Position numbers and translations under genes: made by a program
Shown here: piece by piece, positions 4,933 to 50,774 of the stretch
Layout: each line of letters opens with the position of its first letter
How positions within the stretch are numbered: the first letter of the stretch is position 1
Origin: Aeromonas rivipollensis
Lineage (GTDB): Bacteria; Pseudomonadota; Gammaproteobacteria; Enterobacterales; Aeromonadaceae
Direction of reading: 5' to 3'
Length of the DNA stretch: 64,000 nucleotides
NCBI RefSeq assembly: GCF_037811135.1
Contig: NZ_CP149130.1
Location: forward strand, 2,600,501 to 2,664,500
Notes under the pieces: generated by a model
The model's database searches: none
Seen by the model: only the letters and a program-made list of their open reading frames with translations
What the model was told of the DNA's origin: nothing

Positions 4933-5192
4933 AAAAGTTGGCTCACTCAATACACTGACAAGCGCGTGGTTATACGCCCTATGGCCTGATTTTTCAAGGT
5001 TGGCGGCTATGACACGATTACGAAGCGAATGCTGCCAACAGTAGAAACAGAGGTTATCTCGATGCAATGCAGTCGTAACCTGACAGTCCAAGCACCTCTG
5101 ACTGAAGGGGCTATACAGAGTCGATTCATATCGTTCTGTATCATTATCTTCCTTAATTCAGGAACGGTGGATAACCCAATATTTCCGCGGTC

Positions 5193-5207
5193 AAAAGGAG
5201 GTGATCC
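5193..5207 (-). other. short copy of the 16S rRNA 3' end
   Basis: On the minus strand this reads GGATCACCTCCTTTT, matching the extreme 3' end of 16S rRNA including the anti-Shine-Dalgarno sequence, with CTG just before it after one extra G. Homology does not extend further into 16S or spacer sequence. It lies at the edge of the AT-rich patch. The rest of the gene-free stretch 4933-5260 shows no gene I can support. Confidence 0.45.
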
Positions 5208-5260
5208 CAGAACTACTACAAAACATCCCACAGGGTATTGTCACCATTTAGCACTGTGAT

Positions 5261-5887
5261 TCATATCTGGCTAGATAATACTAGGTTTAACGCCATTCCT
5301 ATTAATACAATGCTGCAAGACTTGTTTAGTCCGACTTGAACTGCCGGTCGAGATTGTATCCAAGGAGATAATACTCCAGCCATGTAGCCTATCGGCAACT
5401 TTACAAACAATGTAAGCAATGCAAATGCTGCCCCTAAATATAATAATGTCTGCATCGGTTGAGTACTGTCCGCACTAACAAACTGAGGAAGATATGCAAA
5501 ATAGAAGACTGCTATCTTTGGATTACTTATATTAGAGAACATTCCTTTAAAGAAAAAGGAATACATGCTTCCACCGGTTTCTTCCACATTGTTGAAACCA
5601 ATTGCTGGCGCTTTAAATAGTTTTATCCCAAGATAGAATAGGTAAGCTGCACCAATATATTTCATAATATTAAAGGCGAACTCAGATGTTTGTAACAAAG
5701 CACCTAATCCTAACGCTACCAAAAGCGTATGACCCAACAATCCAGTCGCGACTCCAGAGGCTGTAATCATGCCAGCCTTAGAGCCTCTGGCTATTGAATT
5801 GGATAGTACTAACACCATATCTTGCCCTGGAGCCAAGACGATTAATAATGATGTGGTTACAAAAAGGAATACTGCTGAGTCTATCAT
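5261..5887 (-). CDS. LysE/RhtB-family amino-acid exporter
   Basis: This 208-residue protein has about six hydrophobic segments and the N-terminal LysE/RhtB pattern (hydrophobic helix, then APGQDMVLVLSNS, then GSKAGMITASGVATG). Family members export amino acids or related compounds across the inner membrane. The gene is clearly AT-rich compared with neighbours on both sides and lies 107 bp downstream of a same-strand AraC-type regulator, its likely controller. The substrate cannot be told. The composition suggests horizontal acquisition. Confidence 0.85.
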   Translation of the reverse strand: MIDSAVFLFVTTSLLIVLAPGQDMVLVLSNSIARGSKAGMITASGVATGLLGHTLLVALGLGALLQTSEFAFNIMKYIGAAYLFYLGIKLFKAPAIGFNNVEETGGSMYSFFFKGMFSNISNPKIAVFYFAYLPQFVSADSTQPMQTLLYLGAAFALLTLFVKLPIGYMAGVLSPWIQSRPAVQVGLNKSCSIVLIGMALNLVLSSQI

Positions 5888-5994
5888 GGATGATCATCTC
5901 AAGTTCTATATCAAGTTTCTAAAAGATACCATTATATTTTCACCTCTAGTTTGTTGATAAGCCGATTTAGTATTGCCAAAAGCTGATTGTTGTA

Positions 5995-6732
5995 TTATCT
6001 CGCTCTCAGCTTTCTGGGCGGATAGCCGAAGTACTGACTAAATCGAGAACTAAATGCAGATGAGTCCTGATATCCGACATCACCAGCTATAACATTGATA
6101 GGGTAGTCAGTATTGACCAGCAGTGCTCTTGCTTTCTCCATTCTCAGGTGTAACAGATATTGCCCTGGTGTTTGACCTGTTTCTTTTTTAAATAACGCCT
6201 TGAATTGACTTATGCTCAGACAAGCCACTGATGCCAATTCATCTAGTGAAGGTGACATACGGATATCGTTTTCCAAGAGTTCTATTGCTCGGGAGATTCT
6301 CTTATCTGTATTAAGTAGAAATGGTTGTTCACTCAGAAGCTGGAAAAACCATTTCCCCATACTGCTTTCCAGTGTCGGACTAGTTCGGTACTCAAGTTGC
6401 TTTTGAACAAAGAAGCAGAAAGCTTGAACAGGCTCAGAGATTTTCACAAAAGATTCTTGTAGCTTCTCTATATTTGCAGGAAGTTCACTTAGATCTGCAA
6501 CCAGAAAATATGACCCTTTTTCTGGTGCAAATGTGTGCTCATCCCCTGCAAGAGTTATGATACATTGTCCAGGAACCCCTCTTCCTGTATGCCGGCCTGT
6601 ATGCATGTCAACAGCCCCGATCAAAGGGAACACTAGTTGGTGATGATCATGTGCATGAGTATGTGATACAAACGTATATGAGCGAATTGAAAGTTTAGCC
6701 GTCATATGTACACCAACGTTGTGTGCATCCAT
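5995..6732 (-). CDS. AraC-family transcriptional regulator
   Basis: This 245-residue protein has an N-terminal cupin-like sensor (HTHAHDHHQLVFPL near residue 25) and a C-terminal double helix-turn-helix of the AraC/XylS type (LASVACLSISQFKALFKKETG, then INVIAGDVGYQDSSAFSSRFSQYFG). It belongs to the AT-rich patch and precedes the LysE-type exporter on the same strand, a common regulator/exporter pairing. The effector is unknown. It may regulate the exporter and itself. Confidence 0.85.
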   Translation of the reverse strand: MDAHNVGVHMTAKLSIRSYTFVSHTHAHDHHQLVFPLIGAVDMHTGRHTGRGVPGQCIITLAGDEHTFAPEKGSYFLVADLSELPANIEKLQESFVKISEPVQAFCFFVQKQLEYRTSPTLESSMGKWFFQLLSEQPFLLNTDKRISRAIELLENDIRMSPSLDELASVACLSISQFKALFKKETGQTPGQYLLHLRMEKARALLVNTDYPINVIAGDVGYQDSSAFSSRFSQYFGYPPRKLRAR

Positions 6733-7076
6733 TCGCCAACGGATTTATCTTAGCTGACGTGCATTGAAGAGATGGATGATGTATGTAACGTGCTAGACTA
6801 GCATTAATTCTTTTAAGATATCAAGTATGCCGTCTTGTCAATGGCTTCTTATTATCTACACCTCCTTTTATTGACGAGCAGATAAATAAAGGCATGCAAA
6901 TGCCATATATCCCCTCAGTTCTGCCTGTTTCTGCGCTATTGGCTCATAAACGTTCATCCTTGGCAATTACTCTAACTGAAGGAGTCATCTGTAATAATGG
7001 TAATCAGCGCTGAGGTTAAAATAGTGAAGCGCATTTAGACACTATTGGAAAGGATGTCCATATAAGGTTTTCAATC
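6733..7076. other. AT-rich intergenic stretch
   Basis: About 340 bp between the AraC-type gene and the sucD terminator. It is AT-rich like the patch to its left and must hold the promoter of the AraC-type gene. I see no open frame with protein-like composition, no RNA gene and no clear repeat. Confidence 0.5.
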
Positions 7077-40485: not shown

Positions 40486-40512
40486 AACAGCCCCGCCAGC
40501 GGGGCTGTTTCT
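40486..40512 (+). terminator. araBDA terminator
   Basis: AACAGCCCC, loop GCCAGC, GGGGCTGTT, then TCTT. It lies 33 bp after the araA stop and separates the ara genes from the helicase module. Confidence 0.85.
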
Positions 40513-40682
40513 TGATGACGAGTCGAGCTTGTCTTACAGGGTGCCCCCTTCACTCATCCCTTGCCGGGGCAAACGCCACCCTTGACATGACGATTTAATT
40601 AACCTGCTGTTTAAGCTGAATATTTCCATTGGTTTATCGTTTTTGATAGGGTATGGCAACCTTTCCAGCCGACCCAGCCATC

Positions 40683-41267
40683 ATGTCCATCGCTTACTAT
40701 GATCAGCACGCCCGCGCATTTGCCGACAGTACCTTGAGTGTCGATATGCAGCCTCTCTATCAGCACTTTCTGCCGCTGCTGCCACCCGGTGGCCATATCG
40801 TCGATGCCGGTTGCGGCAGCGGACGGGACAGCCACTTTTTCATGGCGGCGGGATTCAGGGTCACGGCATTCGATGGCAGCAAGAAGCTGGCGGCGCTGGC
40901 CAGCCACTATATCGGCCTCGCGGTGGCGGTATGTCGGTTCGAGCAGTTTCAGGCCAGCGAGCCGGTGGACGGGATCTGGGCCTGCGCCAGTCTGCTCCAT
41001 GTGCCGTTGGCGGACTTGCCTGCCGTCATGAGGCATCTGGCCATTCAACTGAGAGCTGGCGGCCACTTTTATTGCTCTTTCAAGTACGGCCGTGGCACGC
41101 TTGCCCGTGACGGGCGAACCTTCACGCAACTGGATGAAGATGCCCTTTACGCCCTGCTGAGCGAGTTACCTCTGGTCGCCATCGATGTGTGGCAGACGAC
41201 CGATCTGAGACCGGGCAGAGCCGAAGAACGCTGGCTCAATGCCGTACTGCAGGTCAAACAGCCATGA
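40683..41267 (+). CDS. class I SAM-dependent methyltransferase
   Basis: This 194-residue protein has a Rossmann methyltransferase fold. Motif I is HIVDAGCGSGRDSHFF near residue 38, followed by FDGSKKL and a later IWACASLLHVPLADLPAVMRHL motif. It resembles tellurite-resistance/small-molecule methyltransferases (Methyltransf_11/TehB type) and lacks DNA-methyltransferase DPPY/NPPY motifs. The ATG at 40683 was preferred; 40653 would add ten residues. Its stop overlaps the helicase start (ATGA), so the two are translationally coupled. Target unknown. Confidence 0.72.
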   Translation: MSIAYYDQHARAFADSTLSVDMQPLYQHFLPLLPPGGHIVDAGCGSGRDSHFFMAAGFRVTAFDGSKKLAALASHYIGLAVAVCRFEQFQASEPVDGIWACASLLHVPLADLPAVMRHLAIQLRAGGHFYCSFKYGRGTLARDGRTFTQLDEDALYALLSELPLVAIDVWQTTDLRPGRAEERWLNAVLQVKQP

Positions 41268-44251
41268 ACTCGCTGATGCTGGTCGGCGGCGGACACGCAA
41301 GCGATCCCCTTTTTACCGACCCCCTGCTCCCCCATCTGCTGGCGGCACTGGCCGAGTGCGGACAAGGGGCGCGGATCGAGCTGTGCGTCTCGTTCATCCG
41401 GCAAAGCGGTCTGTTGCTGCTGCGTGAGGCGCTGCAGCAGGCACAAGCCAGAGGGGCGCACCTGCGCGTCATCACCTCCGACTATCTGGACGTGACCCAG
41501 CCGGTGGCACTGCGCGAGCTGCTCAAACTGGATCCCGCCCGCACCACGGCCCTTGTCTATCAGAGCGCAGGAAACCGCGGCTTTCACCTCAAATCCTATC
41601 TGTTCGTGCGCCAGCATTGCTCACACCACCTCTGCGGCCGGGCCTTTGTGGGCTCGAGCAATATCTCGGCTGCCGCCTTGAACGACTCGCTGGAGTGGAA
41701 CTGGTCGCTGACCGTGGATGACTCGCCCTGTGTCGAGGCACAGCAGAGCCTGCAACAGCTGATGACACAGGTTGAACTGCTCGCAAGGGATCCACGGGTC
41801 GTGCCACTGACTCACCGCTGGATTGATGACTATCTGGCGCGCTATCAGCAAAGCAGCTTGCGGGAACTGAGGGCTCTGACCGGTGACAAAACAAAAGATG
41901 CCGAGGCACTGCGCGAACGGCCAATGCCCAACAAGGTGCAGCTGGATGCCCTTGCCGCGCTGCATGCCACCCGCAACGCGGGTTACCAGCGGGGATTGGT
42001 GGTCATGGCGACCGGTCTTGGCAAAACCTGGCTGGCCGCCTTCGATGTACATCAGATGCAGGCGGCTCGCTTGCTGTTTGTTGCCCATCGGGAAGAGATC
42101 CTGACGCAGGCCAGAGCCACGTTCCAGCGCCTGTCTCCCTCGGCCCGTACCGGCCTCTATCAGGGGGAGCAGCAGCAGGATGTGGACTGGCTGTTTGCCT
42201 CCATCCAGACGCTGGGCAAGGGCCGGCATCTGCTGCGCTTTGCCCCCGACCACTTTGATTACATCGTTGTTGACGAGTTTCATCATGCCGCCTCCCCCTC
42301 GTATCGCAGGTTGCTCGATCACTTTCAACCTCGCTTCCTGCTGGGATTGACTGCCACACCGGATCGAACCGATCAGGCCGATATTCTGGCGCTCTGTGAC
42401 AACAATCAGGTCTTTGAATGCTATCTCGCCGAGGCCATTGAACAGCATTTTCTGGTGCCGCTGGTCTACCACGGCATCCTCGACGACACCATCGACTATG
42501 CGGCCCTGCCCTGGCGAAATGGCCAGTTTGACCCGGATGCGTTGGAACATGCCTTCGCCAGTCAGCGGCGGGCACAACACGCCCTGCACCAGTGGCAAAA
42601 GCTGGGTCAGCAACGCACGCTGGCCTTTTGCATCTCCATTCGCCATGCCGAGTTTATGGCCCAGTGTTTCACTGCGGCCGGAGTCAGGGCGATGGCCATC
42701 CATGCCCAGTCATCCCTTGACCGCACCTGGGTACTGAAACAGCTGGAAGCGGGAGAGCTCGACATCATCTTCTCGGTCGACCTCTTCAACGAAGGCACAG
42801 ACCTGCCCGCCATTGATACCGTACTGATGCTGCGCCCGACGGAGTCTCGCATTGTCTTCCTGCAGCAACTGGGACGCGGATTGCGTCTCCATCCGGGCAA
42901 AGAGCGGCTGCAGGTGATCGATCTGGTGGGCAACCACAAGGCCTGCCTTGGCAAACCTATCTTGCTGGAACAGCAGTTGACCCGCCGCCATGGCGTGCAC
43001 GGCGAACCCGTACTGGCGCCTGGGTGCTTTATCAATCTGGATCCTGCCCTGCTGCCCATGCTGGATCGCCTCAACGCCACGCGCCGCCCGCCACTGCTGC
43101 AAACCTATCGCGAACTCAAGGAACAGTTCGGCTACCGACCGACAGCCCACCAGGTCTGGCAAAGCATGCAGGCCAATCAGCTTGAATTCGATACCCGCGC
43201 CTTTGGTGGCTGGTTCGCACTGGTGGCACAAGAGGGCGATCTGGACGCAACCAGTGAGCAGGTTTGGCAGCAACTGCGGGAATTTCTCCATCTCGCCGTT
43301 GAAACCACCCAGCTGGCGAAAAGTTTCAAGCTTATTTTGCTGCAGGCCCTGCTCGAGCTGGACGGGTTGCGCTCGCCGCCGACCCTTGCCGAGCTGGCCA
43401 GCCACTCCCGCTACCTGCTGGAACGCCATCCCCGGCTGTTGAAACTGGATCTGCCCGATCCGCAACAGCAGCTTGCCGCAGACAGCGCAAGCTGGTTGCG
43501 CTACTGGCGCAATAACCCGATAAAACACACCACTGGTGAGAATAACGCTGCGCGCCGCCGCTACTGGTTTGTGGTCAAGGATGATCGTTTTTGCACGGAT
43601 TTCGCGCTCAATGAGACGCAGATAGATCAGCTCCACCATATGATGCAGGAGCTGCTGGACTTGCGCATGGCTCAGTATCTGGCCCGCAAGTCTCGGATTC
43701 GGTCGGCACAAAGCACGGCGTCATCAGACACTGGCGAGCGTGCAGAGGTTGTGGCGCTGGGCAGCCTCCGCCAAACAGCGCCTCTCAAGCCGGAGAACAG
43801 CGCGGTGGAGAGCGGCTCCTTGCTCTCCTACTTCCCCAATCTCAAGATTGCCTGCGGCCACTTCAAACATGGTGACGAGAGTGATATGGCGCTGCAGCGC
43901 CTCGACAGCAGTTGGGGAGAACTTGATCCCAAGCGCCACTTCCTGGCCCGCGCCAGCGGCAATTCGATGGATGGCGGCAAACAACCGATTGTGGATGGCG
44001 ATCTGCTGTTGCTGGAGTGGATCACCCCGGACAGTGCGGGCTCTATCACCGGCAGCATCATGGCGATCGAGCAAGAGGATGAGAGCGGCCTGAATCAATA
44101 CCTGTTGCGGGTTGTCACCAAAAACAGCGCGGGCCAATACCGTCTTAAAGCCAATAACCGCGACTATCCCGAGCTGTCCGCCAACGAAAATATGCGGACA
44201 TTCGCTCGCTTGAAAAACGTAATAAAATTCTATGAAAGCAGGGCAAATTAG
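41264..44251 (+). CDS. PLD nuclease/SF2 helicase/S24-like fusion protein
   Basis: This 995-residue protein has three parts. Residues about 30-190 form a PLD-type nuclease half: HLK at 108-110 and GSSNIS at 130-135. Residues about 225-560 are an SF2 helicase: Walker A GLGKT (251-255), DEFH (337-340), TATPDR (363-368), QLGRGLR (535-541). A C-terminal LexA/S24-like domain (about 890-982) has the serine motif GNSM (S901) and DGD (911-913); the usual catalytic lysine appears to be arginine (R949). PLD-SF2 proteins are annotated as restriction or repair helicases. The start is fixed by the ATGA overlap with the methyltransferase. Confidence 0.85.
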   Translation: MNSLMLVGGGHASDPLFTDPLLPHLLAALAECGQGARIELCVSFIRQSGLLLLREALQQAQARGAHLRVITSDYLDVTQPVALRELLKLDPARTTALVYQSAGNRGFHLKSYLFVRQHCSHHLCGRAFVGSSNISAAALNDSLEWNWSLTVDDSPCVEAQQSLQQLMTQVELLARDPRVVPLTHRWIDDYLARYQQSSLRELRALTGDKTKDAEALRERPMPNKVQLDALAALHATRNAGYQRGLVVMATGLGKTWLAAFDVHQMQAARLLFVAHREEILTQARATFQRLSPSARTGLYQGEQQQDVDWLFASIQTLGKGRHLLRFAPDHFDYIVVDEFHHAASPSYRRLLDHFQPRFLLGLTATPDRTDQADILALCDNNQVFECYLAEAIEQHFLVPLVYHGILDDTIDYAALPWRNGQFDPDALEHAFASQRRAQHALHQWQKLGQQRTLAFCISIRHAEFMAQCFTAAGVRAMAIHAQSSLDRTWVLKQLEAGELDIIFSVDLFNEGTDLPAIDTVLMLRPTESRIVFLQQLGRGLRLHPGKERLQVIDLVGNHKACLGKPILLEQQLTRRHGVHGEPVLAPGCFINLDPALLPMLDRLNATRRPPLLQTYRELKEQFGYRPTAHQVWQSMQANQLEFDTRAFGGWFALVAQEGDLDATSEQVWQQLREFLHLAVETTQLAKSFKLILLQALLELDGLRSPPTLAELASHSRYLLERHPRLLKLDLPDPQQQLAADSASWLRYWRNNPIKHTTGENNAARRRYWFVVKDDRFCTDFALNETQIDQLHHMMQELLDLRMAQYLARKSRIRSAQSTASSDTGERAEVVALGSLRQTAPLKPENSAVESGSLLSYFPNLKIACGHFKHGDESDMALQRLDSSWGELDPKRHFLARASGNSMDGGKQPIVDGDLLLLEWITPDSAGSITGSIMAIEQEDESGLNQYLLRVVTKNSAGQYRLKANNRDYPELSANENMRTFARLKNVIKFYESRAN

Positions 44252-44495
44252 ATCCTCATATCGTATCCACTATATGTTTCAGAACTGGCGTGATTGTTAC
44301 GTGTTTTATAGCCGGACCAACTCAGGATCCTGTATGCAGAGGTCCATTGGTAGAAAAGGTTTGCAACATGCAGCATAAAAATCAACGCAGAACGATGCCA
44401 ACTCTCCCTTTTATCAGGTAAAGTAGCGCCAACCCCATGATCTAATAGCACTAATTATTATCTGGATGAATTGTACCAGATGGAGATGGCTGTTG
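44252..44495. other. AT-rich gap in helicase module
   Basis: A 244-bp AT-rich stretch between the two large helicase genes, likely holding the promoter of the second. I see no terminator after the first gene and no RNA gene or repeat, so read-through is possible. Confidence 0.45.
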
Positions 44496-47400
44496 ATGAA
44501 TCTTCTACTCTCATCTGTTCTCGGAAATGACAAGATCCTCTCTTTTGACCTTGAATTAACACGGGATGATAACTTACGGCACCTTGGTGCACTTCTTGAT
44601 GATCAGCAATTAAGCCTTAAAGGTCCTCAAGAACTCTCCATCAAAGAACTTAACAATCTAGCCCATCATGCAGACTTGGTTCTCGGCCATAATATTCTGG
44701 ATTTTGATCTCCCCTGGTTAGCCAAACAGGCGGTGCGTCCCCAACAGCTTCTCGATAAACCGGTGATCGATACTCTCTATCTCTCACCCCTTGCCTTTCC
44801 CAAGAATCCCTATCACCGCTTGGTCAAAGATTACAAACTGGTACGAGATGCCCTCAATGATCCGGTCGCCGATGCAAGACTCGCCCTGCAGGTTTTCTCC
44901 GAACAATTGGCCGTCCTGCAGTCCTTACCCCTGCCCCAGCTACAACTCTATCAATATCTTTTTAGCCAAGGAGTCACAGCACAGTTCAGCACTCAAGGTC
45001 TCTCTCTGGTATTTGCCAGGTTAACGGGTCGTCCTCTGGTCAAGGTTTCTGAGCTGCCCACCCTCATTAAGAGCATTGCCCACGAGAAAGCCTGCCCCAA
45101 TCAGCTTAACCGGGTGATTGGCGATGCCTTGCGCCAACCCATGCTGTTGTTGCCGCTGGCCTATGCTTGCGCCTGGTTGCCTGTGTCCGGCGGAAACTCT
45201 GTACTACCCCCCTGGATTTGGCGTCGCTTTCCTCAAACAGCGGAGATCATCAACACAGTTCGCGAACGCCACTGTGGTCACGCTGACTGCGGCTACTGTC
45301 AGGAGAACCACGATGCCCGCCGTCATCTGCAACGCATCTTTGAACTCGACAACTTCCGAAGCCTGCCTGATGGAACCCCATTGCAAAAGACCCTTGTTGA
45401 GGAAGCAATGGCCGGAGTCGCGCTACTTGGCATCCTGCCCACCAGCGGTGGTAAATCGCTCTGCTACCAGCTCCCCGCACTGGTACGCAACCAGCGCAGT
45501 GGCGCTCTCACTATCGTGATCTCGCCGCTACAGGCACTAATGAAAGATCAGGTGGACAACCTTAAATTCAAGGCAGGTATCGAAGGTGTCGCGGCCATAT
45601 CCGGACTGCTCACCCTGCCTGAACGTGGTGCGATTCTCGAACAGATCCGCATGGGGGATATCGCCCTGCTCTATATCTCCCCCGAGCAGCTTCGCAATCG
45701 CACCGTCAAGCAAGCCATACGACAACGTCAGATCGGTGGCTGGGTATTTGACGAGGCACACTGCTTATCAAAATGGGGCCATGATTTTCGCCCCGATTAT
45801 CTCTACTGCGCCAAGGCCATCGCTACCATTGCCAGCGAGCAACAAGTCCCCGTTCCACCAGTCTTTTGCTACACAGCAACGGCCAAGCCGGATGTGGTTA
45901 CAGACATCTGCGACCAGTTTCTCGACAAGCTGCCCCAACCACTGCGCCGACTGGAAGGGGGGGTTGAGCGAACAAACCTCGAGTACGCAGTCATCGAATG
46001 CCCCGGTCTCAATAAACACGGACATATCCTCAACTTACTCGAGCAGTTCTTCGGTGAAGATAAGCCTGGTTCCTGCGTTATCTACTGCGCGACCAAACGT
46101 AATGTGGACGAACTGGCCGATTTTCTCGGGCAACAACAGCCCCTTCCCGTCGCCCGCTTTTACGCCCGAATGGACAATGCCACAAAGAAGGAGACTCTGG
46201 AGCAATTTATCAATGGCGAGATACGGGTCATCTGTGCAACCAATGCCTTTGGCATGGGGATCGACAAAGATGATGTGCGCCTGGTGGTCCACGCCGATAT
46301 TCCCGGCTCCCTCGAAAACTATTTGCAAGAAGCGGGGCGAGCGGGACGCGATACGAGGCAGGCGCACTGCGTATTGCTCTTTGATGAACAGGATATAGAG
46401 AAACAGTTCCGACTCGAGGCCATGAGTGAAGTTAGCCTGCGAGACATCAAACAGATCCTGCGCGGAATACGGATCCGGGCCAATAAGGGAAGCAAACAGG
46501 AGCCCCCATCCCCATTGGTTGCAACCAGTGCAGAGCTCATCAACCAACCCGATGTAGAGACCAGCTTCGCCGCCGACGACAGCAATGCCGATACCAAGGT
46601 CAAGACGGCTATCGCCTGGCTCGAGCGCACCGGTTATCTGGAACGCAGCGACAACATCACCCAGGTGTTTCAAGGGCGCCCCCTGTTTGCCTCCACGAAG
46701 GAGGCGATGGACCTGATTGAGAGCCTGAAACTTGCTCCAAAGGCCAAAGCTATCTGGCAGGCCGTTATCCAGGCACTGATCAATGCAGCCGATGATGACG
46801 GTCTCAGTGCCGATAGCATTGCCGAAGAGGCCGGTCAGTACATGGCCGATCAGGGACGCGGCGTACAAGCCAGCGAAGTGATGCGAGTGCTCACCCAGAT
46901 GGCGGATGTCGGGCTGCTCTCACAAGGCATGCTGCTCACCGCCTGGATCCGTCCCAAAGGGAAAGACAACGCCCGGATACTCACTGGCCAGGTACACAGC
47001 ATTGAGAAGGAGATGCTCACGACCTTGCGGGAGCAACTGCCCGACCCCGATGCCAGAGTTGGTCACCCTCTCAACATGCGACACCTCAACCAAGCCATCA
47101 AGGAACAGGGCCATGAGCAATGTAACCCGGGCCTTTTACGAAATCTGCTGACCAGTTGGTCCCAGGATGGCCGCTCGGGAGGTGAGAAAGGCGCGATAGA
47201 TGTCAAATACCTCTCCCGAGATCACTACCAGATAACCTTTAACCGACCATGGGCACAAATAGAGCAGACTATCGCTCAGCGCCATGCTGTCACCGGAGCC
47301 ACCCTCGATTTTCTCTACACCCAACTGGCCAGTAGCGAGGAGAGTGTCCAGCGTCAGGTGATGATCTCGTTTGCTCTGGAGCAATTGGTTAAATACCTGC

Positions 47401-49691
47401 GTGAAGATATGGATGTTACCCAGCTGATGAATAAGCGAGAAGCTAGCAGCCAGCAGGAGTGGCTACTCAAAGGGGCCGAACGGGCGCTACTCTATCTGCA
47501 CGAGCAACATGCGGTGGTGCTGCAAAATGGCCTCGCCGTTTTCCGCACCGCCATGACCCTCACCCTGACCTCGGAGCGTCAACAGCAGTACGGCAAGACG
47601 GACTACCAACCCCTCGAACATCACTACCGCCAGAAGGTCATCCAGATCCATGTGATGAACGAATATGCCCGCATTGGACTGGAGCACTTCAAAAGAGCCA
47701 AGGAGCTGGTGACCAATTACTTCTCAATGGAGGCCGACAAATTCCTCGGTCACTACTTCAAGGGAAGAGGCAAGATCCTGGAACTAGCAACTAGCGAACA
47801 CTCTTGGAAGCGCATTGTCGAAGATCTGCACAACCGGCCTCAGGAGCAGATAGTCCAGGCCCCGCCCGAACAAAATTTGCTGATACTGGCTGGCCCAGGT
47901 TCGGGCAAGAGCAAGGTAATCATCCATCGCTGCGCCTACCTGCTGCGAGTCAAACAGGTCGATCCGGCCAAGATCATGCTGCTTTGCTACAACCACAACG
48001 CAGCAATCTCACTGCGCCGCCGTCTGGTTGAACTACTGGGACGCGATGGCGCCCGGGTATCGGTATTCACCTTCCACGGTCTTGCCATGAGCCTGACCGG
48101 TAATGCAATGCAAAACCGAACATCGGACGATATCAATTTCTCCGCCATCATCGATGATGCAATCAAGCTGCTCCGCGGTGAGCAAAGTCAGCTCGGCCTC
48201 GAGCTCGAAGAACAGAGAGAGAGACTGCTTGGTGGTCTGCAATTTTTGCTCGTCGATGAGTATCAGGACATAGACGAGCAGCAGTACCAACTTATCGCGG
48301 CACTGGTGGGCAAGAGCGAAGAGGATGAAGAAGCTCGTTTGCATCTGATGGCAGTGGGTGATGACGACCAGTCCATCTACGCCTTTCGCGAAGCAAATGT
48401 GAGCTTTATCCGCCGTTTTGAGCAAGACTACAACGCCCAAACCCACTTTCTGACCTGGAACTACCGATCCACGGCCCACATCATCGAAACGGCCAACCGC
48501 TTGATAGAGCACAATCAGGATCGCATGAAGCGAGCGCACCCCATCGTGATCGACGAACGGCGCAAGATGGAGGTCCCCGGTGGCCACTGGGAGGAACTGG
48601 AGACTGCGCGAGGCAGAGTCATCATCCAGCAGTGTCTGGATGCGCCCCAACAGGCGGCCGAAGTCGTGAGACATATCGCGCTCATCCGTCAGAAGGATCC
48701 GGACTGTCCACTGGAGTCGATCGCAGTGCTGGCCCGTAACGGGCTGGAGAAAGAGGAGCTGACCTGGGTTCGCTCGGCTCTGGCGGATGCCGCCATCCCC
48801 TGCCGCTTTAACCTGGATAAAGAGCACGGTTTCCCGGTTCACCGCTGCCGCGAGATCTTGCGCTACCAGAGTTGGTTACAACAGCAAGGCCATTCCCTGC
48901 TGACAGTTGAGCAACTTGCTGCCCCACTCCCCCCGCTAGAGCAGGCCAATCGTTGGGAGACTCTGCTGCATGAACTAATCGAGCAATGGCAAGGCAGTCA
49001 GGGGGAGCATGCCCTTTCCGCCCACCACTTCCTGATGTTCCTCTACGAGTATCTTGGCGAGCAAAGACGCCAGATCCGCTTTGGCAAGGGAGTACTGCTG
49101 AGCACAGTACATGGGGTCAAGGGTGAGGAGTATCGCTATGTACTGATCCTTGATGGCGGATGGCAACGCTGCGCAGAACGCAACTCGAACAACATCGAGG
49201 AAGAGAGACGCCTTTTCTATGTAGCAATGACCCGAGCAATACAACGTTTAGTGGTTATGTCCCGCGTGGATCAGCGGCATCCGCACCTTCCTCTTATCAA
49301 CGAATGTTGTTACAACGAGTCGCACCAAGCCACATCACCTGCCCGACTACGCCGTTTTACCATTATGGGAATGCGTCAACTTGATATTGGTTTTGCAGGA
49401 CGTAGTAACGAAAACAATCCTATCCACCACCAACTTCGCCGATTACAAGTCGGAGACGCAGTGCGTATTGATATCGATAATCTTCAGAAACTTCATGTGT
49501 TCCATGGCCAAAAAACCGTTGCTCGGCTTTCCCAAAGTGCTCATCAAATATGGCAAAGCCAATTTTCAGCAATCCGGCATGCCACAGTGATCGCTATGGT
49601 TGAGCGAAGCAAAGAGCAGGAAGACGAGCCCTACCAAGCACAAATTCGAAGCGAACGATGGGAGCTCCCCATTATCGAGTTGGAGTTGTAA
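44496..49691 (+). CDS. DEDD exonuclease/RecQ/UvrD triple fusion helicase
   Basis: This 1731-residue protein joins three enzymes. Residues about 14-135 form a DEDD 3'-5' exonuclease (D18, E20 in SFDLELT; GHNILDFD near 65; D126). A cysteine cluster (CGHADCGYC, 260-268) follows. RecQ motifs are GGKS (318-321), DEAH (419-422) and QEAGRAGRD (611-619). UvrD motifs are GPGSGKS (1133-1139), VDEYQD (1253-1258), GDDDQSIYAFR (near 1288), WNYRS (1321-1325) and FYVAMTRA (1574-1581). All helicase motifs look intact. ATG 44496 has GGAGA upstream; ATG 44466 is the alternative. Composition is more AT-rich than flanking genes. Confidence 0.87.
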   Translation: MNLLLSSVLGNDKILSFDLELTRDDNLRHLGALLDDQQLSLKGPQELSIKELNNLAHHADLVLGHNILDFDLPWLAKQAVRPQQLLDKPVIDTLYLSPLAFPKNPYHRLVKDYKLVRDALNDPVADARLALQVFSEQLAVLQSLPLPQLQLYQYLFSQGVTAQFSTQGLSLVFARLTGRPLVKVSELPTLIKSIAHEKACPNQLNRVIGDALRQPMLLLPLAYACAWLPVSGGNSVLPPWIWRRFPQTAEIINTVRERHCGHADCGYCQENHDARRHLQRIFELDNFRSLPDGTPLQKTLVEEAMAGVALLGILPTSGGKSLCYQLPALVRNQRSGALTIVISPLQALMKDQVDNLKFKAGIEGVAAISGLLTLPERGAILEQIRMGDIALLYISPEQLRNRTVKQAIRQRQIGGWVFDEAHCLSKWGHDFRPDYLYCAKAIATIASEQQVPVPPVFCYTATAKPDVVTDICDQFLDKLPQPLRRLEGGVERTNLEYAVIECPGLNKHGHILNLLEQFFGEDKPGSCVIYCATKRNVDELADFLGQQQPLPVARFYARMDNATKKETLEQFINGEIRVICATNAFGMGIDKDDVRLVVHADIPGSLENYLQEAGRAGRDTRQAHCVLLFDEQDIEKQFRLEAMSEVSLRDIKQILRGIRIRANKGSKQEPPSPLVATSAELINQPDVETSFAADDSNADTKVKTAIAWLERTGYLERSDNITQVFQGRPLFASTKEAMDLIESLKLAPKAKAIWQAVIQALINAADDDGLSADSIAEEAGQYMADQGRGVQASEVMRVLTQMADVGLLSQGMLLTAWIRPKGKDNARILTGQVHSIEKEMLTTLREQLPDPDARVGHPLNMRHLNQAIKEQGHEQCNPGLLRNLLTSWSQDGRSGGEKGAIDVKYLSRDHYQITFNRPWAQIEQTIAQRHAVTGATLDFLYTQLASSEESVQRQVMISFALEQLVKYLREDMDVTQLMNKREASSQQEWLLKGAERALLYLHEQHAVVLQNGLAVFRTAMTLTLTSERQQQYGKTDYQPLEHHYRQKVIQIHVMNEYARIGLEHFKRAKELVTNYFSMEADKFLGHYFKGRGKILELATSEHSWKRIVEDLHNRPQEQIVQAPPEQNLLILAGPGSGKSKVIIHRCAYLLRVKQVDPAKIMLLCYNHNAAISLRRRLVELLGRDGARVSVFTFHGLAMSLTGNAMQNRTSDDINFSAIIDDAIKLLRGEQSQLGLELEEQRERLLGGLQFLLVDEYQDIDEQQYQLIAALVGKSEEDEEARLHLMAVGDDDQSIYAFREANVSFIRRFEQDYNAQTHFLTWNYRSTAHIIETANRLIEHNQDRMKRAHPIVIDERRKMEVPGGHWEELETARGRVIIQQCLDAPQQAAEVVRHIALIRQKDPDCPLESIAVLARNGLEKEELTWVRSALADAAIPCRFNLDKEHGFPVHRCREILRYQSWLQQQGHSLLTVEQLAAPLPPLEQANRWETLLHELIEQWQGSQGEHALSAHHFLMFLYEYLGEQRRQIRFGKGVLLSTVHGVKGEEYRYVLILDGGWQRCAERNSNNIEEERRLFYVAMTRAIQRLVVMSRVDQRHPHLPLINECCYNESHQATSPARLRRFTIMGMRQLDIGFAGRSNENNPIHHQLRRLQVGDAVRIDIDNLQKLHVFHGQKTVARLSQSAHQIWQSQFSAIRHATVIAMVERSKEQEDEPYQAQIRSERWELPIIELEL

Positions 49692-49773
49692 CTGTGCCGC
49701 GAGAGGAGGTGCGCCAAGTCCACAGCACATACCTATCTGCACACATCTCATCCGTGTGGCGTGACGGGTTCGA

Positions 49774-50661
49774 CTAGATGGTATCCCCCTCCAGCAGCCA
49801 GCGGCAGACCCTGTCTACCCCCTGGCGCCGGCTGTCTGGCCGGGCGAGCAGGGCGTACTCGTGGTCCGTCTCCAGCACGGGGGCGAAGGGAGCGACCAGG
49901 GCGCCGCTCTCCAGCTCCTCGGCCACGATTGTGGGATCCCCGAGGGAGAGGCCAAACCCCTGCAGCGCGGCATTCATCGCCAGGTCCAGGGTATCGAACA
50001 GCTGTCCCCCCTGGGGCTGCCAGGGGGTGGCGAGGAAGGCGGCGAACCAGTTGCGCCAGTCCCGTCGATCCGCGCTGGCATGGAGCAGGGGCAGCCGGGG
50101 CAGCTCTTCTATGGTGCGCTCGAACAGACGGTGCTTGGCGGCAAAGGCGGGGGCGCAGACCGGGGTCAGCCGCTCCTGGAACAGCGGCTGGCTATGGGGG
50201 TACCTGGCCTGACAGGGTTGATAGACGATGGCGAGATCGAAGGACTCCCGGGAAAAGTCGATGCCATGGCTGTGGCTGCCGCGCACTTCGACTGCCTCCC
50301 CCTCGAACGCCTGCAGCCGTCGCAGCAGCCAGCGGCTGGCACAGGAGGGCACCTTGATGCTGATGGCCTGCTCGTGGGGCAGAGTCTGCAGGGCACTGAG
50401 CCCCTCCCCCATGCGGGCCAGCCCTTCGCGAACGAAGGGCAGCAGGCGCTCGGCGGCCGGGGTCAAGGCCAGGCAACGGGTACCTCGCACGAACAGCAGG
50501 TGGCCGAGGCGGGCCTCCAGCTGGGCGATCTGCTTGCTCACCGCCCCCTGGCTCACGCACAGCTCGTCGGCGGCCAGGGTGAAACTCAGGTGGCGGGCAG
50601 AACACTCGAAAACCTGCAAGCCATAGAGGGGCAACTGGCTGCGGGGTTGGCTGGACAACAT
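49774..50661 (-). CDS. LysR-family transcriptional regulator
   Basis: This 295-residue protein has the LysR N-terminal winged helix-turn-helix (LQVFECSARHLSFTLAADEL, then SQGAVSKQIAQLEARLG) and a C-terminal substrate-binding domain. It resembles GcvA/AmpR-type members (LPLYGLQVFE start). The ATG at 50661 has GGAGG five bases upstream, preferred over the longer frame to 50748. It is divergent from the aminotransferase-amidase-binding-protein genes and probably controls them. Ligand unknown. Confidence 0.85.
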   Translation of the reverse strand: MLSSQPRSQLPLYGLQVFECSARHLSFTLAADELCVSQGAVSKQIAQLEARLGHLLFVRGTRCLALTPAAERLLPFVREGLARMGEGLSALQTLPHEQAISIKVPSCASRWLLRRLQAFEGEAVEVRGSHSHGIDFSRESFDLAIVYQPCQARYPHSQPLFQERLTPVCAPAFAAKHRLFERTIEELPRLPLLHASADRRDWRNWFAAFLATPWQPQGGQLFDTLDLAMNAALQGFGLSLGDPTIVAEELESGALVAPFAPVLETDHEYALLARPDSRRQGVDRVCRWLLEGDTI

Positions 50662-50774
50662 ACAAGCCTCCATGCTTGAGAAAAACTCATGCATAACATG
50701 CCGAATAATCCGTTGTCCGGCAAGGAAGCGAGGGCTAAAAAGGGACATCTTTCACACACATCGGTGACGGCGCC

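Follow-up and report, generated by a model that had tools for sequence, protein, structure and literature searches.

An accessory insert in Aeromonas rivipollensis: a SauUSI-like nuclease with a LexA-type domain beside an exonuclease-RecQ-UvrD fusion

Do a methyltransferase, a nuclease-motor fusion and a multi-helicase exonuclease that share one chromosomal site make up a single anti-phage system, or are they separate units that lie side by side? The question is raised by a locus of Aeromonas rivipollensis within the analysed window, a stretch of 64,000 nucleotides (contig NZ_CP149130.1, positions 2,600,501 to 2,664,500 of the forward strand), in which three same-strand genes are placed between araA and a gene for a LysR-type regulator: a methyltransferase (MT, 194 residues), gene 2 (995 residues) and gene 3 (1731 residues). 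An initial annotation, made without database searches, had read them as a methyltransferase, a PLD-SF2-S24 protein and an exonuclease-RecQ-UvrD fusion that together form one candidate module. Pfam, NCBIfam and fold comparisons confirm the arrangement and the domain reading, but find no support for a single module. The pair of MT and gene 2 is a unit apart from gene 3, each of the two having a patchy distribution, and the locus is read here, with a probability of about 0.5, as two accessory anti-invader cassettes lying side by side.

Two separate units in one insert

The site between ara and the LysR gene is empty, holding only 25–82 bp, in five genomes compared by blastn of the window (G296 of the same species, and G298, G294, G299 and G292; G and L numbers denote genomes and loci), and the intervening segment is therefore an insert that is not universally present in the species. 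At a sixth site (L071) the match is on the LysR side only, and the ara region of the window is 91.7% identical to that of A. caviae over 6.5 kb. The insertion is well supported, and the evidence supports an accessory, horizontally acquired nucleic-acid-processing locus with parts that resemble defence proteins.

The start codon of gene 2 overlaps the stop of MT (ATGA), as first described, while gene 3 is set apart by a gap of 244 bp. The homology of gene 3 with other Aeromonas genomes begins inside this gap, at 44390, 44428 or 44476. The AT-rich composition that had been ascribed to the whole module applies to gene 3 (54.3% GC) and to the gap (42.2%), but hardly to MT and gene 2 (about 60%, with flanks of 63–66%).

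The separateness of the two units is well supported by their distribution. Among 37 Aeromonas genomes, gene 3 occurs in four and orthologs of gene 2 (at least 66% identity) in five; 17 genomes match gene 2 in all, the matches beyond the orthologs being to a 40% identical paralog that the source genome also holds. Both units are found together only in the source genome, and eight of the nine Aeromonas carriers hold one unit only. Furthermore, G294 carries gene 3, and G292 carries MT and gene 2, at another position while their ara-LysR sites are empty.

A mobile-element signature at the insert ends was considered and rejected, as no direct or inverted repeats of at least 10 bases were found there and no transfer RNA gene was found in the window. 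A scan for promoters and terminators gave counts not above those of shuffled sequences (1 versus 4.0 and 6 versus 7.9). The features are collected in Table 1.

Table 1. Coordinates, in window positions, of the insert, its genes and their domains
Feature	Position	Strand	Basis
Accessory insert, 9.28 kb	40510..49788		bounded by araA terminator region and LysR gene 3' end
MT, small class I S-adenosylmethionine methyltransferase, partner of gene 2	40683..41267	+	Pfam Methyltransf_23/25/11/12 above cut-off; phmmer 3e23 1.4e-23
Gene 2: SauUSI-like PLD nuclease, SF2 motor, helical linker, LexA/UmuD-type S24 domain	41264..44251	+	Pfam; hmmsearch
PLD nuclease region (about residues 1-189)	41264..41830	+	PLDc_2 8.1e-07; H108, K110, N133, E144
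SF2 motor region (about residues 222-562)	41927..42950	+	ResIII 3.1e-36, Helicase_C 9.2e-13
LexA/lambda-CI/UmuD-type domain (residues 853-988)	43820..44227	+	C864-G865 at cleavage-site column, Ser901, Arg949, Lys953
AT-rich gap between the units	44252..44495		244 bp, 42.2% GC
Gene 3: DnaQ-like exonuclease, Cys cluster, RecQ motor, helical/winged-helix-like middle, UvrD motor, C-terminal domain	44496..49691	+	Pfam, NCBIfam, fold
DEDD exonuclease core (about residues 10-134)	44523..44898	+	D18, E20, D71, D126
LysR-type regulator, flanking, outside the insert	49774..50748	-	Pfam HTH_1 and LysR_substrate

Elsewhere in the window, a further AT-rich stretch (5001-7000, 40–42% GC, noted by eye from the sequence) holds open reading frames for a LysE-like exporter (5261-5887, minus strand) and an AraC-like regulator (5995-6732, minus strand), and is probably a second acquired piece.

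A SauUSI-like nuclease and its methyltransferase

Profile comparison relates gene 2 to SauUSI, a type IV restriction enzyme of a kind that cleaves DNA with 5mC or 5hmC in an ATP-dependent manner. Its profile matches SauUSI (PDB 7clg) at 2.8e-96 over residues 28–576 (hmmsearch), the PADLOC model that fits it best describes a type IV methyl-directed enzyme and covers residues 31–563, and both the four PLD residues listed in Table 1 and the SF2 motor motifs are kept in 12 of 12 aligned relatives. The domain layout given for SauUSI in PMC7913695 comprises PLD (1–191), ATPase (221–617), coupler (618–805) and SRA recognition domain (806–953), and its C-terminus is assigned to DUF3427 in PMC3874153. 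By this layout, gene 2 shares the order of PLD and SF2 motor, with a helical region after the motor, in one chain of about 950–1000 residues, but differs by a LexA-type domain in place of the DUF3427/SRA domain and by its partner MT. The model of gene 2 is helical from residue 565 to about 819; the SauUSI match ends at 576, and no kinship of the coupler was found by sequence. In addition, the glutamate that follows the HxK lysine by five residues in SauUSI (HxKx4E) is replaced by Val115, and no glutamate occupies this column in the 12 aligned relatives, in which N133 and E144 are invariant instead. NgoAVII and CglI likewise combine a PLD nuclease with an SF2 motor, but as described in PMC7913695 they consist of two subunits (R2H2) with a B3 recognition domain, whereas gene 2 is a single chain.

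DUF3427 has no Pfam match in gene 2 of the window and is found in its relatives L167, L169, L124, L150 and L044; the region in L167 aligns weakly with the SauUSI recognition domain (E 0.06). Since L167 has the order MT-PLD-SF2-S24-DUF3427 and L169 the order PLD-SF2-S24-DUF3427, S24 is an extra module that occurs with or without a recognition domain. Proteins of the PLD-SF2-DUF3427 type are about 40% identical to gene 2 in nuclease and motor, and one such paralog, which unlike gene 2 has DUF3427 and no S24 match, lies in the source genome (L044, G000:C1:2997651-2999192) and occurs in 14 of the 37 Aeromonas genomes.

Two further observations concern relatives of gene 2. The PLD-SF2 proteins of L124, L150 and L170 bear an N-terminal extension with a CxxC and an APRRHV/IPRRH-like motif, which is perhaps a HIT-like nucleotide domain and which no Pfam model matched in L124 and L150. 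In A. caviae, a relative lies in two pieces over 4.0 kb, as if interrupted (L179, NZ_AP026896.1 2237940-2241947), on a 4.9-Mb record titled plasmid.

MT is an obligate partner of the S24-bearing forms of gene 2, which it adjoins or to which it is fused in 13 of 13 loci. Ten of these hold the same MT type (the window, L029, L046, L047, L164, L166, L168 and L204, with fusions in L167 and L206), and L169, L205 and L207 a sister type, 25–28% identical, which in L205 lies downstream on the other strand. Among the eight relatives with no detected S24, an MT accompanies L030, L140, L120 and L150 and is absent from L124, L165, L170 and L171. The homology of the other Aeromonas gene-2 loci always includes MT (4/4), and a truncated Polaromonas plasmid gene is likewise an MT fusion. 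Judged by its sequence, MT lacks the typical motif IV of DNA methyltransferases: the region reads WACASLLHV, and amino-DNA methyltransferases have (D/N/S)PPY/F there.

The C-terminus of gene 2 has, by computation, a LexA-type fold with a cleavage-site region. C864-G865 and S901 are kept in 12 of 12 aligned relatives, at columns shared with the UmuD-like and LexA proteins of the source genome. The domain differs from the self-cleaving domains of LexA, lambda CI and UmuD (family S24), whose cleavage RecA stimulates, in being joined to a nuclease-motor protein and in having no lysine at the aligned dyad column, near which Arg949 and Lys953 are both invariant in 12 of 12. No description of a restriction enzyme with a LexA-type domain was found in the literature searches.

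An exonuclease-RecQ-UvrD fusion

Gene 3 is, as far as literature searches show, an undescribed helicase-nuclease fusion: no account of an exonuclease-RecQ-UvrD protein was found, and the plasmid annotations examined name it only 'RecQ family ATP-dependent DNA helicase'. Within the class, relatives that are 40–46% identical extend over all or nearly all of its length, and the motor motifs are conserved in 53 aligned proteins. The N-terminus has a DnaQ-like DEDD exonuclease fold with the four acidic residues present; searched against the PDB, it gave no clear match as a single sequence and, as a profile, weak matches to exonucleases and DinG, with unrelated chains among them. WRN is an exonuclease-helicase fusion, and both WRN and bacterial DinG, the best fold match, carry a DEDD-type exonuclease N-terminal to a motor, as does gene 3, which differs in having a full UvrD motor as well, a cluster of cysteines ahead of RecQ and a long middle part. 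The middle has no Pfam match in the window protein and weak winged-helix matches in a few of 27 relatives, and the C-terminal domain was aligned among relatives with no identity found. The Cys cluster before the RecQ motor (residues 260–268) is perhaps zinc-binding, with C200, C260, C265 and C268 present in 53 of 53 proteins.

PADLOC relates gene 3 to Gabija GajB through the UvrD motor and to the DpdF and PsyrT helicases through the RecQ motor. Membership of Gabija, Dpd or PsyrTA was rejected, as each match covers one motor only. The listed region of the window shows no partner of the GajA, Dpd or PsyrA type, and gene 3 is neighboured by MT, gene 2 and LysR, with no GajA OLD-family nuclease beside it. 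Among described systems, gene 2 has a partial match in SauUSI, and no match emerged for gene 3.

Across 80 loci, a sample from named genomes, gene 3 showed no constant partner. Three other Aeromonas copies face a class I methyltransferase (MT') and an HNH protein (L023 8986-16641, L024 5805-13469 and L025 from 2040), and the surroundings of this 7.7-kb block differ between L023 and L024. The HNH-MT' pair was rejected as a constant partner: three of six HNH carriers lack gene 3, and against the 80 loci the HNH query gave no match and the MT' query weak matches in four. No gene 3 was found in phages at 1e-150, and seven viral contigs hold relatives, four of them nearly full length. In E. coli, blastn at 1e-30 gave no match for MT and gene 2 or for part of gene 3, a search that distant proteins could escape.

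Roles of the two units

Defence is probably the role of both units, as suggested by the SauUSI kinship of gene 2, by patchiness and mobility, and by the defence genes that sometimes lie beside relatives of gene 2 and gene 3. In the first cassette, homology suggests that gene 2 would be an ATP-driven endonuclease of the SauUSI type, whose SF2 motor acts on DNA and whose dimeric PLD domain cuts. The LexA/CI/UmuD-type domain would most likely link this nuclease to RecA filaments, which arise when DNA is damaged or a phage replicates. The link would be self-cleavage after C864, stimulated by RecA, or at the least a docking to the filaments; in relatives in which DUF3427 follows the LexA-type domain, such a cut would split the recognition domain from nuclease and motor. 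Gene 3, the second cassette, would be a self-contained machine that destroys or resects DNA, its RecQ and UvrD motors feeding a DnaQ-like exonuclease of presumed 3'-5' polarity.

Several points weigh against these two anti-invader cassettes. The SauUSI recognition domain is absent from gene 2, which therefore leaves target choice unexplained. The dyad Lys column holds no lysine in any of eight aligned S24 domains, the gene-2 protease may be dead, and confidence in the model is lowest at the cleavage site and the serine (block means of the predicted local distance difference test, 55 and 53). In the exonuclease of gene 3, the His or Tyr that motif III of DEDD exonucleases holds is missing: Asn121 stands at -5 in 48 of 53 proteins, the -4 position is Asp, Asn, His or Ser, and the invariant His107 lies in a poorly modelled loop. 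The MT'-HNH pair beside the other Aeromonas copies is a different association, and many gene-3 neighbours look like ordinary metabolism. Defence-island frequency, a check proposed at the outset, adds little: with PADLOC at 1e-20, near neighbours (110 of 261 eligible) matched 152 families and far ones (110 of 158 eligible) matched 51, where counts are models, not genes, and 25 matches of each set were examined. The far control also held defence families, and the difference is suggestive at most of defence enrichment.

The strongest competitor, with a chance a little short of even, sees in the S24 domain a LexA-type fold that is dead, binds DNA, RecA or protein and never cuts. The missing lysine and the invariance of Arg949 favour this, yet a dead fold has no need to keep the cleavage-site Cys-Gly and the Ser that all 12 relatives retain, and Lys953 might serve in place of the dyad lysine. 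At the other extreme, gene 2 could be a nuclease of restriction type that carries its own SOS switch, in which RecA filaments formed upon phage replication or DNA damage would trigger self-cleavage at C864-G865 and so arm or disarm a SauUSI-type DNA shredder that MT licenses; the arginine near the dyad column would then make cleavage strictly RecA-dependent. This fuller scheme is tentative, and doubtful in its entirety.

An accessory DNA-repair role is unlikely. DNA repair is the classic role of RecQ, UvrD and DEDD exonucleases, and gene 3 could be a WRN-like resection or fork-repair enzyme and gene 2 a damage-responsive nuclease, to which its LexA-type domain would point, but patchy presence, empty sites, plasmid carriage and the kinship of gene 2 to SauUSI speak against it, and the source genome holds full sets of housekeeping RecQ and UvrD homologs elsewhere.

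Still less probable is the initial annotation's view that all three genes cooperate as one defence system, which was rejected as the principal explanation. A relative of gene 2 lies within 10 kb in four of the 80 gene-3 loci (L120, L124, L140 and L150), with MT in three of these; such co-localisation exceeds by far a rough chance expectation, estimated from the 1.13 Mb that flank 79 loci and from the 7 of 398 genomes with gene 2, and the other Aeromonas gene-3 copies likewise adjoin a methyltransferase-nuclease pair. However, the available sequence of 76 loci shows no gene 2, with flanks that are often short (at least 9 kb on both sides in 34 of 79 loci), gene order and strand vary, and most Aeromonas carriers hold a single unit. 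Of the four loci in question, three belong to Rhodobacterales and hence are not independent, and shared defence islands are the simplest account.

Least probable of all is a classical restriction-modification pair in which MT would protect DNA and gene 2 would cleave any unmethylated DNA. The strict pairing and the two fusions speak for it, but MT is without a target-recognition region, the solved structures closest to it are of small-molecule-type or uncharacterised enzymes, and its motif IV is unlike that of amino-DNA methyltransferases.

To conclude, SauUSI-like nucleases are known as a kind, and what is new here is a variant with a LexA-type domain, beside a helicase-nuclease fusion. Should this domain work, a defence enzyme that cuts DNA would be tied directly, at the level of the protein, to the cell's RecA/SOS state, and such coupling, if true, would explain how a nuclease of this type is restrained or released (compare restriction alleviation). 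The strict pairing or fusion with MT raises the further question of what MT modifies. Gene 3, a widespread single-chain exonuclease-RecQ-UvrD machine, is a clean candidate for a one-gene defence system.
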